Below, one piece after another: positions 2 to 46,642 of a DNA stretch of 64,000 nt; positions within the stretch are counted from its first letter, which is position 1, and each line of letters opens with the position of its first letter. This DNA comes from Paenibacillus sp. Soil522 (GTDB lineage Bacteria > Bacillota > Bacilli > Paenibacillales > Paenibacillaceae). A program made the position numbers and the translations under genes. The DNA lies in NCBI RefSeq assembly GCF_001428245.1, contig NZ_LMRV01000031.1, positions 40,666 through 104,665 of the forward strand, written 5' to 3'. Below the pieces are notes generated by a model. That model had not been told where the DNA came from and searched no databases. It worked only from the letters and a program-made list of their open reading frames with translations.

Positions 2-484
2 AGCTGGCAATGCGGCACGATCCAGCTTGATTTCCAAATGCCGGATAAGTTCGATTTGGCCTACATTGGCGAGGATAGCCAGAAGCATCGGCCCGTCGTC
101 ATTCACCGCGCGGTGTACGGCTCGATCGACCGGTTCATCGGTATTTTGACCGAGCATTTCTCAGGCGCGTTTCCGCTATGGCTGGCTCCCGTTCAGGTTA
201 AGCTTCTGCCTGTCTCGGAGAAGTATATCGATTACGCTTTGCAAGTTAAGCAAGTGCTGTCCGATGCGGGCATTCGCACGCAGGTGGATACGCGAAATGA
301 AAAGCTGGGCTATAAGATCCGCGAAGCGGGGCTTGCGAAGGTGCCCTACACGCTCGTGCTGGGTGAGAATGAGAAAAATGCAGGTACTGCAGCGCTAAGG
401 AAAAGGGGCGAGGGAGACCTCGGGTCGCAAACGATTGGCGAAATTTCTCAGCGTATCAAGGATGAGATTCAGGCTAAGTTATAA
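2..484 (+). CDS. thrS: Threonine--tRNA ligase, C-terminal part (5' end outside window)
   Basis: Charges tRNA-Thr with threonine in the cytoplasm. The reading frame is open from base 2, so only the end of the gene is present. The visible part starts in class II motif 3 context (WQCGTIQLDFQMP), continues through the HRAVYGSIDRFIGIL segment, which is typical of ThrRS, and ends with the anticodon-binding domain (from about APVQVKLLPVSEKY to the C-terminus). The Cys in WQCGT matches the position of the zinc/active-site region of the family. An intrinsic terminator follows at once, so thrS is the last gene of its transcript. The identification is firm; only the missing N-terminal part cannot be judged. 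Confidence 0.96.
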   Translation, partial: SWQCGTIQLDFQMPDKFDLAYIGEDSQKHRPVVIHRAVYGSIDRFIGILTEHFSGAFPLWLAPVQVKLLPVSEKYIDYALQVKQVLSDAGIRTQVDTRNEKLGYKIREAGLAKVPYTLVLGENEKNAGTAALRKRGEGDLGSQTIGEISQRIKDEIQAKL

Positions 485-45095: not shown

Positions 45096-45124
45096 TTGCG
45101 AAACAAGCGTTGATTCGCTATAAT
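45096..45124 (+). promoter_or_regulatory. Promoter of histidyl-tRNA synthetase leader
   Basis: TTGCGA (45096-45101), 17-base spacer, TATAAT (45119-45124). The predicted transcript start near 45131 gives a leader of about 200 bases. Confidence 0.7.
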
Positions 45125-45155
45125 CACTTTAATTCAGTCGAAGGGATTGGGTATC

Positions 45156-45203
45156 ATGTACAAATTCCAATTGAATCAGCTTCATCATTTCACCAAGCGT
45201 TAG
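45156..45203 (+). CDS. Leader peptide with tandem histidine codons
   Basis: A 15-codon frame, MYKFQLNQLHHFTKR, with AAGGGA nine bases ahead of ATG and stop TAG at 45201-45203. The two adjacent His codons (45183-45188) lie just upstream of a series of overlapping hairpins and a terminator ahead of a histidyl-tRNA synthetase gene. This is the arrangement expected for ribosome-mediated attenuation by histidine supply, as known for enterobacterial his operons. The small number of His codons is a weak point. Confidence 0.6.
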   Translation: MYKFQLNQLHHFTKR

Positions 45204-45204
45204 C

Positions 45205-45303
45205 ACACCTGAACAACATTCAGGGTGGGCTAGCGCTTCTCGCGTTGGCCTCCCTGCAGCATACGATGCGCGCAGGACCATGAGGTCCTGCGCGTTTTTT
45301 TTT
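45205..45303 (+). promoter_or_regulatory. Four-hairpin attenuator ahead of histidyl-tRNA synthetase
   Basis: Hairpin 1: CACCTGAA (45206-45213) with TTCAGGGTG (45219-45227). Hairpin 2: CAGGGTGG... (45221-45236) with ...CCTCCCTG (45242-45256). Hairpin 3: CCTGC/GCAGG plus GCAT/ATGC (45253-45276). Hairpin 4: terminator CGCGCAGGACC / GGTCCTGCGCG (45269-45294) with nine T. Hairpins 1/2, 2/3 and 3/4 exclude each other. A ribosome stalled at the His codons allows 1 and 3 (readthrough); one that reaches the stop codon covers the first arm, allowing 2 and 4 (termination). No T-box motif (AGGGTGGNACCGCG) is present. Confidence 0.65.
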
Positions 45304-45334
45304 ATTCCAATAATCCGGGAGAGGAATGATCGTG

Positions 45335-46642
45335 ATGCAAAACGTGAAGGGGACTTATGATTATTTTGGCAAGGAGCAGGCGCTTAGGAGGCAGGTTCAA
45401 GCAGCTCTCCATGAAAAGTTTGAGCTCTATGATTTCGATGAGATGGTGACGACCGAGCTGACCGGGCTCGATTTCTTGACCTCCAAATACGCGGGTGGCG
45501 ATGAAATCATGAAGGAAATGTACCAGCTGACGGATCAGCGAAAGCGGCGATTAGGATTGCGGTATGACCTGACGGTCCCTTTCGCCAAGGTGCTCGCATT
45601 AAATCCGGGGATTGAGCTGCCCTTCAAGCGGTATGAGATCGGAAAGGTGTTCCGTGACGGTCCCGTTAAGCGCGGGCGTATGCGGGAGTTTTTGCAATGC
45701 GATGTCGATATTGTCGGGGTAAAAGGGCCTGAAGCGGAGGTCGAATTAATGCAGCTGGCGGTCGACGTATTCCGTACGCTGGCGATTAAGATTCAGCTGA
45801 AATGGAACAATAGACGTTTTTTGGGCGAGATTCTGGCTGCTGTCGGAGTTCCAGCCAAGGATTCGCTATCGGTCATGCTGACCCTAGATAAGCTTGCAAA
45901 AATCGGAGCAGACGGCGTGAAGGAAGAGCTTGCCGGGAAAGGACTGGCGGGCGAGGCGAGGGATGCCGTTACCTTGCTGATTACAATAGAAAATCCGTCG
46001 CTCGAGGAACTTATGGACAAATACGGGCTGCAAAATAGCGCGGGAGCGCTGGAGGTGCTGGCGGTACGAGATATGCTGTGCAAGATTGGACTTGCGGAGG
46101 ACTGCTTGTTTGATCCATATCTCTCGCGCGGGCTATCGTTCTATACGGGAACGGTCTATGAAATATTTGATGCAGCAGGCGGCTTCTCTTCGAGCTTGGG
46201 CGGCGGCGGGCGTTATGATGCGATTATTGGACAGCTGGCCGGTAGGGACGTTGCCGAATACAGCGCGGCCGGGTTATCGTTTGGCATGGAGTCGATTATG
46301 GCGCTGCTCGAAAATCGTACCGCGGAAGCGGCTGCCGCTTCGGTAGTCCTCATTCCCGTAGGCGTATCTGCTGCGGATATGCTGCAAACAGCGGCCGAGC
46401 TGCGCGCGAGCGGTATCCGGGTGAAGCTCGATACGAGCGGCCGAAAGCTGAAAAATATTCTCGCCTCGGCAGCGGGCAGCGGAATCCGTTATGCGCTGCT
46501 GCTGGGAGAAACGGAATGGAAGGCTGGAAGGGTCCGTTTAAAGGACATGGAAGAGCGGATCGAGCGGGAAGTGAGCGTAGATGAAGCGATATACGTAATA
46601 GAGACTAATATTGCTCAACCGCTGGTCCCAAATAGACTGTAG
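45335..46642 (+). CDS. hisS: Histidine--tRNA ligase (paralogue-type)
   Basis: Class II aminoacyl-tRNA synthetase of 435 residues charging tRNA-His. Motif 2 region: RYDLTVPFAKVLA and FKRYEIGKVFRDGPVKRGRMREFLQCDVDIVG; the histidine-binding loop reads SRGLSFYTGTVYE (usually RGLDYYTG), motif 3 is FGMESI. A C-terminal anticodon-binding domain is present (SVVLIPVGVSAADMLQTA to the end), which sets it apart from the shorter HisZ regulatory subunit. No hisG follows. The start is ATG 45335, giving MQNVKGTYDYFG; an ATG at 45326 lies against the ribosome binding site GAGAGG. Leader-peptide attenuation is likely. HisZ function cannot be fully excluded. Confidence 0.82.
   Translation: MQNVKGTYDYFGKEQALRRQVQAALHEKFELYDFDEMVTTELTGLDFLTSKYAGGDEIMKEMYQLTDQRKRRLGLRYDLTVPFAKVLALNPGIELPFKRYEIGKVFRDGPVKRGRMREFLQCDVDIVGVKGPEAEVELMQLAVDVFRTLAIKIQLKWNNRRFLGEILAAVGVPAKDSLSVMLTLDKLAKIGADGVKEELAGKGLAGEARDAVTLLITIENPSLEELMDKYGLQNSAGALEVLAVRDMLCKIGLAEDCLFDPYLSRGLSFYTGTVYEIFDAAGGFSSSLGGGGRYDAIIGQLAGRDVAEYSAAGLSFGMESIMALLENRTAEAAAASVVLIPVGVSAADMLQTAAELRASGIRVKLDTSGRKLKNILASAAGSGIRYALLLGETEWKAGRVRLKDMEERIEREVSVDEAIYVIETNIAQPLVPNRL

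Follow-up and report, generated by a model that had tools for sequence, protein, structure and literature searches.

Organisation of the leader upstream of HisRS2

The window, by which we mean the whole 64,000-nucleotide stretch of DNA that was analysed, carries a short leader ahead of a gene for a histidyl-tRNA synthetase-like protein, here called HisRS2 (Table 1). We found all of the elements that an initial annotation of the sequence had listed, namely a promoter, a 15-codon open reading frame (ORF) with a Shine-Dalgarno sequence (SD), two His codons, a set of hairpins, and a terminator with nine T. Five pairing arms, A to E, together span 45197-45295; the hairpins described earlier as 1/2, 2/3 and 3/4 correspond to A:B, B:C and C:D, and the terminator to D:E. 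Because they share strands, these successive helices are pairwise exclusive. The folding energy of the region 45131-45303 is unusually low (z = -4.56), and none of 200 shuffled sequences folded equally well. The promoter-like site is weak by itself, since shuffled sequences give 1.0 expected site for the 1 found; a motif of the form TTGNNN-16..18-TATAAT lies upstream of 65 of 86 related leaders. The leader arrangement is confirmed as real and conserved.

Table 1. Features of the leader and of the gene that follows it (window coordinates).
Feature	Position	Strand	Details
Promoter-like TTGCGA-17-TATAAT	45096-45124	+	motif match
SD of the leader ORF, GAAGGG	45140-45145	+	
Leader ORF, 15 residues	45156-45203	+	MYKFQLNQLHHFTKR; ATG at 45156, stop codon TAG at 45201-45203
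Two adjacent His codons, CAT CAT	45183-45185, 45186-45188	+	first base 14 nt upstream of arm A
Arm A (GCGTTAGC...CCTGA)	45197-45212	+	leader stop codon inside; partner B
Arm B	45220-45236	+	partner A or C
Arm C	45242-45257	+	partner B, or D via CCTGC at 45253-45257
Putative C:D antiterminator, CCTGC...GCAGG	45253-45276	+	45253-45257 with 45272-45276, inner GCAT/ATGC; based on complementarity only
Intrinsic terminator D:E with nine T	45268-45303	+	stem 45268-45279 with 45284-45295; T run 45295-45303
HisRS2 (PRK12420)	45326-46642	+	candidate regulated gene

The downstream gene had been described simply as a histidyl-tRNA synthetase. It is indeed HisRS-like (NCBIfam PRK12420, histidine--tRNA ligase; 541.7 bits against a cut-off of 540), but it is a second paralogue: the main HisRS, with the usual motifs, is encoded elsewhere in the 6.4-Mb genome (G000:C34), which also holds a HisZ-like gene (C30). 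Most of the closest named relatives belong to Paenibacillus, and the host is therefore likely of that genus. Directly upstream of the C34 hisS lies a T-box match of 70 bits, below the gathering score of 93, with an E value of 3e-14. Class II synthetases carry an arginine in motif 3. At this motif (window ~46270-46310) HisRS2 reads GMES, compared with GLER in the HisS of the same genome. Serine occupies the arginine position in 59 of the 59 HisRS2 proteins in which the pattern was found (83 were searched, some species being represented twice), and the arginine is absent from all eight HisRS2 proteins that we aligned; L101 has Val. Because this residue is missing wherever the motif was seen, the ligase activity of HisRS2 is uncertain.

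The leader peptide and its reading frame are conserved

The initial annotation had proposed a comparison of the same region across related genomes, and in that comparison both the ORF and its His codons were kept. Among 52 distinct regions upstream of HisRS2 genes, with the window's own counted (HisRS2 matches at E up to 1e-40; four alphaproteobacterial loci were left out), a leader ORF was present in 51 and absent at one locus, L021. A model built from 48 leaders (R1) matched 94 of 245 family genomes, and the resulting family search supplied a first census of 99 loci, six further strong matches being already represented by other loci. At 88 of these 99 loci a leader ORF was present, and 86 of the ORFs end at the conserved stop; where a locus offered several candidate ORFs, the one richest in His/Tyr was preferred. 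The last nine codons of the 67 HisRS2 leader ORFs mostly read NQLHHHKQR. At position -6, 55 of the 67 carry His and the other 12 Tyr; the 12 leaders that precede genes for NUDIX hydrolases (NUDIX leaders) all have His there. Every one of the 67 HisRS2 leaders has Arg at -1, a residue encoded by a codon that overlaps arm A.

The frame was then assessed at loci that had not been preselected for having an ORF, by scoring an SD and start codon in frame with the conserved stop. In the first census, 76 of the 88 distinct anchored leaders had such an in-frame SD and start, as compared with 2 and 0 in the other frames; the remaining 11 of the 99 loci have no arm-A anchor and fall outside the 88. An order-wide search matched 161 of 392 genomes at E up to 1e-6. 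In a second census of 40 order-wide places, which were chosen and not random, 33 of 40 had an in-frame SD and start, and neither of the other two frames gave any. Shuffled upstream sequence gave 1.0-1.2%. Exceptions were also seen: the frame is broken at L206, and the terminator alone remains at L212.

A conserved peptide ahead of competing hairpins could also belong to a leader that, in the manner of the erm and hflXr types, senses any slowing or stalling of the ribosome (an antibiotic being one possible cause) and not the charging of tRNA-His specifically. Such a function would sit well with the presence of Tyr, Phe or other residues in place of His in some peptides, and with the occurrence of related leaders before genes whose connection to histidine is not obvious, namely those for NUDIX hydrolases, an N-acetyltransferase and unknown products. 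However, at least one His falls within the last nine codons of 86 of 86 first-census peptides, runs of three (HHH) occur in 10 of 12 NUDIX and 42 of 67 HisRS2 leaders, and a HisRS paralogue is the commonest downstream gene (69 of 99 loci). We therefore regard a general stalling sensor as unlikely and favour a leader that responds to scarcity of charged tRNA-His.

The leader does not match the T-box model

A second way to sense tRNA-His would be a T-box, possibly shortened, that reads the uncharged tRNA directly. By eye, AGGGTGGG in arm B (window 45222-45229) mimics the T-box motif, and T-boxes are frequent in the window's genome (24 matches, 9 of them over the cut-off), where the main hisS has one. 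The T-box bulge is UGGNACC, and C73 of tRNA-His would face G in AGGGTGGG. In relatives, however, the same stretch reads GGGAGGG, GGGCGGG or GGGATGGG, and A:B pairing follows these changes; since the stretch varies in this way, the likeness is probably a coincidence. A conserved reading frame also precedes arm B, with ~90 nt from the predicted transcription start to that arm, and the Rfam T-box consensus in the main hisS match is of the GGUACC type where the window leader reads TGGGCTA. A T-box in this leader was one of the findings that the initial annotation had named as counting against its reading, and a covariance search for one found none: neither the T-box model (RF00230) nor the His_leader model (RF00514) matched the window leader, whether the gathering score was applied or E values up to 5 were allowed. 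We reject T-box identity on the grounds that there is no covariance match and that the same type of search does find the T-box of the main hisS; the chance that the leader is a T-box appears very small.

Pairing of the arms

Compensatory changes had been suggested as a check on all four stems; we found them clearly in A:B and to some extent in D:E. Across the set of 104 leaders, 93.1% of A:B cells are paired. Two-sided changes fall in 47 cells, as compared with 15.8 in shuffles, and none of 500 shuffles was as high, although relatedness can raise such counts. A:B pairing is also specific to the type of leader: cognate arms pair at -22.4 and -21.6 kcal/mol, whereas arms exchanged between HisRS2 and NUDIX leaders pair at -16.0 and -14.3, a cost of 6 to 7 kcal/mol for swapping arms, and 0 of 2000 permutations were as good as the cognate pairing.

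For the other helices the results were mixed. Among HisRS2 leaders, cognate B:C pairing was slightly better, at -25.5 compared with -24.7 for permuted arms (0 of 2000 permutations as good), but counting in fixed columns of alignment A1 gave no excess of two-sided B:C changes. For arm B of NUDIX leaders the foreign HisRS2 arm C is a better partner (-19.5) than the cognate arm C (-16.6), and NUDIX arm D is likewise better matched by HisRS2 arm E (-21.4) than by the cognate arm E (-17.2). Some covariation was seen in D:E across the 104 leaders, and none in C:D among the leaders aligned, the C and D arms being nearly invariant. A base of arm D, 45274 (alignment column 111), finds a partner in C in all 104 leaders but a partner in E in only 47 of them, an asymmetry that speaks for C:D, whose support otherwise lies in complementarity and invariance. 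Because the arms are almost invariant, most pairs lie beyond the reach of covariation testing.

Predicted folding depends on the position of the ribosome

We modelled the ribosome as covering the 12 nt that start with its A-site codon. Where the first His codon (His1) begins 14 nt before arm A, a ribosome with that codon in its A site would then end 2 nt short of the arm. This distance of 14 nt holds for 36 of the 48 leaders; it is 17 nt in 11 others and 11 nt in the remaining one. With the ribosome edge fixed 2 nt before arm A for every one of the 104 leaders, the predicted probability of the full-length terminator was 0.51, compared with 0.99 for a ribosome at the stop codon and 0.98 when arm A was shuffled. 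When the ribosome was instead placed at each leader's own His1 (48 leaders), the full-length terminator reached 0.71, as against 1.00 at stop. The outcome tracked coverage of arm A: the full-length terminator probability was 0.51-0.54 with A free, 0.68 with 1 nt covered and 0.90 with 3 nt covered. With the ribosome at His1, C:D exceeded its value at the stop codon in 84 of the 104 leaders, and the full-length terminator was lower in 67. In the 12 NUDIX leaders the terminator stood at 0.23 when stalled and 0.97 at stop. A stall one codon later lowered A:B from 0.73 to 0.35. C:D at partial length, in comparison, showed no step at the first base of arm A (0.63 at -2 and 0.57 at +3, falling to 0.31 only at +13).

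In the window leader itself, the predicted effect is confined to partial length. Before any of arm E is made, C:D stands at 0.92 when stalled and 0.99 at stop; with E half made, it is 0.90 when stalled but 0.16 at stop (0.99 and 0.23, respectively, in a second computation). At full length the terminator reaches 0.96 when stalled and 1.00 at stop. Because the terminator wins at full length even with a stalled ribosome, the switch in the window leader would have to be kinetic.

We also folded divergent leaders; L100 and L102, whose sequences had been cut short of the terminator, and L113, which had been read in a wrong frame, count in neither direction here. L094, L095, L096, L098 and L099 are HisRS2 leaders from another family of Bacilli that, by eye, are dissimilar except for the His codons and short arm stretches; in all five, His1 lies 14 nt before arm A, and the minimum-energy fold changes from A:B with C:D at His1 to B:C with the terminator at stop. 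L101, L103, L104 and L109 kept the terminator in both ribosome states. Dependence of folding on ribosome position is thus predicted on average and in five divergent leaders.

Folding with no ribosome gave a less uniform picture. In 66 HisRS2 leaders, partial-length C:D was 0.70, resembling the stalled state, and the full-length terminator was intermediate at 0.68; in 12 NUDIX leaders the full-length terminator stood at 0.43. The terminator formed in L094, L095 and L101, where the His codons pair with the 3' side of arm C. Given the intermediate full-length terminator and its presence in these three untranslated leaders, we do not claim that the leader is on by default without translation.

One could still suppose that the hairpins are just a terminator with incidental pairing and that the short ORF has no regulatory role, a view that gains what ground it has from arms so nearly invariant that covariation cannot test most pairs; A:B covariation, the frame control and the position-dependent predicted folding argue against it, and we think it highly improbable.

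Proposed mechanism

Our data point to ribosome-mediated His attenuation, the mechanism that the initial annotation had put forward, as the best reading of the leader: the His codons and their frame are conserved, A:B covaries, predicted folding depends on ribosome position, and there is no T-box. The leader has the features of an amino-acid attenuator, with a conserved SD and His-codon ORF and with exclusive helices that include a terminator (C:D by complementarity only). We propose that a ribosome stalled at His1 would allow A:B to form, leaving arm C free for the C:D antiterminator and so hindering the terminator. At the stop codon, which is part of arm A, the ribosome would instead cover A; B:C would then form, leaving D to E, with termination as the outcome. 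The natural signal would presumably be low charging of tRNA-His, which extra HisRS2 would relieve. To judge from modelled folding and conservation, then, the leader most likely attenuates transcription by way of the ribosome and would increase HisRS2 expression under scarcity of charged tRNA-His.

Relation to known attenuators

The enterobacterial his leader is usually described as one in which the stalled ribosome breaks the first helix. In the window leader, by contrast, A:B would survive the stall, and arm A contains the stop codon. The enterobacterial leader (RF00514) and the window leader are alike in their His codons, competing hairpins and terminator and in read-through upon stalling, which for the window leader is a prediction; the part of PMC11805395 that concerns it reports that the enterobacterial leader terminates when untranslated.

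The initial annotation had placed his-peptide attenuation in enterobacteria, but it has also been predicted in Bacillus and in three Firmicute lineages. Naville and Gautheret (2010) predicted that Bacillus hisS* and hisZ are each preceded by a histidine leader peptide, hisS having a T-box (PMC2965389). What the window shares with this system, at the level of description, is a His-codon peptide before a hisS paralogue and a T-box on hisS; arms, spacing and mechanism are missing from the relevant section of that paper, and its main text contains neither 'Paenibacill' nor 'nudix'. Two of our divergent leaders, L103 and L104, from other families of Bacilli, may be of this hisS* type. A 2022 study (PMC9413887) predicts, in the section concerned, that his operons are under His attenuators in three lineages: the Bacillus cereus group, Peptostreptococcaceae with Lutispora, and Erysipelotrichales. 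Like the window leader, these are from Firmicutes and have leader peptides with His codons, three to five in their case, right before the attenuator hairpins, but they precede his biosynthesis operons instead of HisRS2, and 'hisS' and 'histidyl' are absent from the main text. Because of these two sets of predictions, His attenuation as a kind is already known.

Two further systems are related more loosely, according to the passages that describe them. The Leu attenuator of Staphylococcus aureus ilv-leu (PMC5794164) is likewise leader-peptide attenuation in Bacillales, and has experimental support; it differs in sensing Leu, in serving a biosynthesis operon and in its structures. uORFC-8-2 before cysS in Rhodobacterales (PMC8632094) is, similarly, a predicted leader-peptide attenuator of an aminoacyl-tRNA synthetase gene, but for Cys and in Alphaproteobacteria.

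In the open-licence literature we found no paper naming this leader family. As far as our searches go, what is new is a leader family across the order of the Paenibacillaceae, its spacing, and its place before NUDIX and orphan genes; as a variant it is set apart by its arm parity, by a stop codon that falls within arm A, by fixed spacing and by having spread to other genes. The leader is a well-supported candidate for a leader-peptide attenuator of a Gram-positive aminoacyl-tRNA synthetase paralogue. With a candidate HisRS2 attenuator beside the T-box of the main hisS, a single cell could serve to compare two ways of sensing the same tRNA. Fixed spacing, together with dissimilar leaders that share the same arm logic, makes the mechanism directly testable, and the related leaders before NUDIX and orphan genes offer a route to the functions of those genes. 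A broader proposal, which we advance tentatively and consider somewhat doubtful, is that the leader is a portable His-stall switch, with a 14-nt ruler from His1 to the stop-containing arm, that has spread across the order to HisRS2, NUDIX, orphan and other genes; the resulting regulon might detect blocked charging of tRNA-His, perhaps by natural HisRS inhibitors, and the switch may be re-aimed to Tyr.

Genes downstream of related leaders

We classified the genes that follow the leaders of the first census by tblastn and obtained 69 HisRS2, 13 NUDIX, 3 orphan "RFHGNY", 1 N-acetyltransferase and 13 unclassified loci. Among the unclassified, L130, L207 and L209 look by eye like hisS2 remnants; L165 is a relic, and several of the weak matches seem unrelated. 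The second census yielded 21 HisRS2, 5 NUDIX, 3 RFHGNY and 11 others. NUDIX hydrolase genes follow a related leader, rich in His and sharing these arms, at L150, L151, L153, L155, L157-L162, L164 and L167, and further such loci are L251-L253, L256 and L258 (Pfam was run on two of all NUDIX loci). In the window's own genome, only distant NUDIX relatives were found (best E 2e-7). That genome also contains a weak second match to the leader, L168 (G000:C88:155698-155802; 42 bits), with a similar D-E part; we looked for a leader ORF there and found none, and the match is possibly a relic.

The orphan protein follows the leader at L149, L152, L154, L250, L257 and L267; the three that were measured have 123-143 aa and no Pfam match. 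At L240, L243, L246 and L248, the leader precedes a stand-alone protein resembling only the C-terminal anticodon-binding domain of HisRS2 (PF03129 at 20.7 bits against a cut-off of 21 in L240; no Pfam match in L248). A PIG-L-like deacetylase follows in L240, as identified by Pfam, and in L243 and L246, as judged by eye.

Two downstream genes were not counted as regulated, each being preceded by a NUDIX- or hisS2-start-like stretch: an S66-like peptidase (by eye) at L259 and a histidinol dehydrogenase (Pfam) at L277. At L268:301-1724, a leader ending in LHYYKRR precedes a tyrosyl-tRNA synthetase (TyrRS) gene, an arrangement seen in one genome. A stretch like the start of hisS2 lies between leader and TyrRS, and A:B contains a mismatch; for these reasons the apparent re-aiming to Tyr may be decay. 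By eye, the TyrRS relatives L281-L283 have T-box-like leaders.

Finally, a few loci pair variant leaders with other genes. A YYYH leader precedes the N-acetyltransferase at L163, a YYYM leader with three Tyr and no His precedes a short ORF at L255, and at L254 the leader QQLHHHQQR lies directly before a HAD-family hydrolase.
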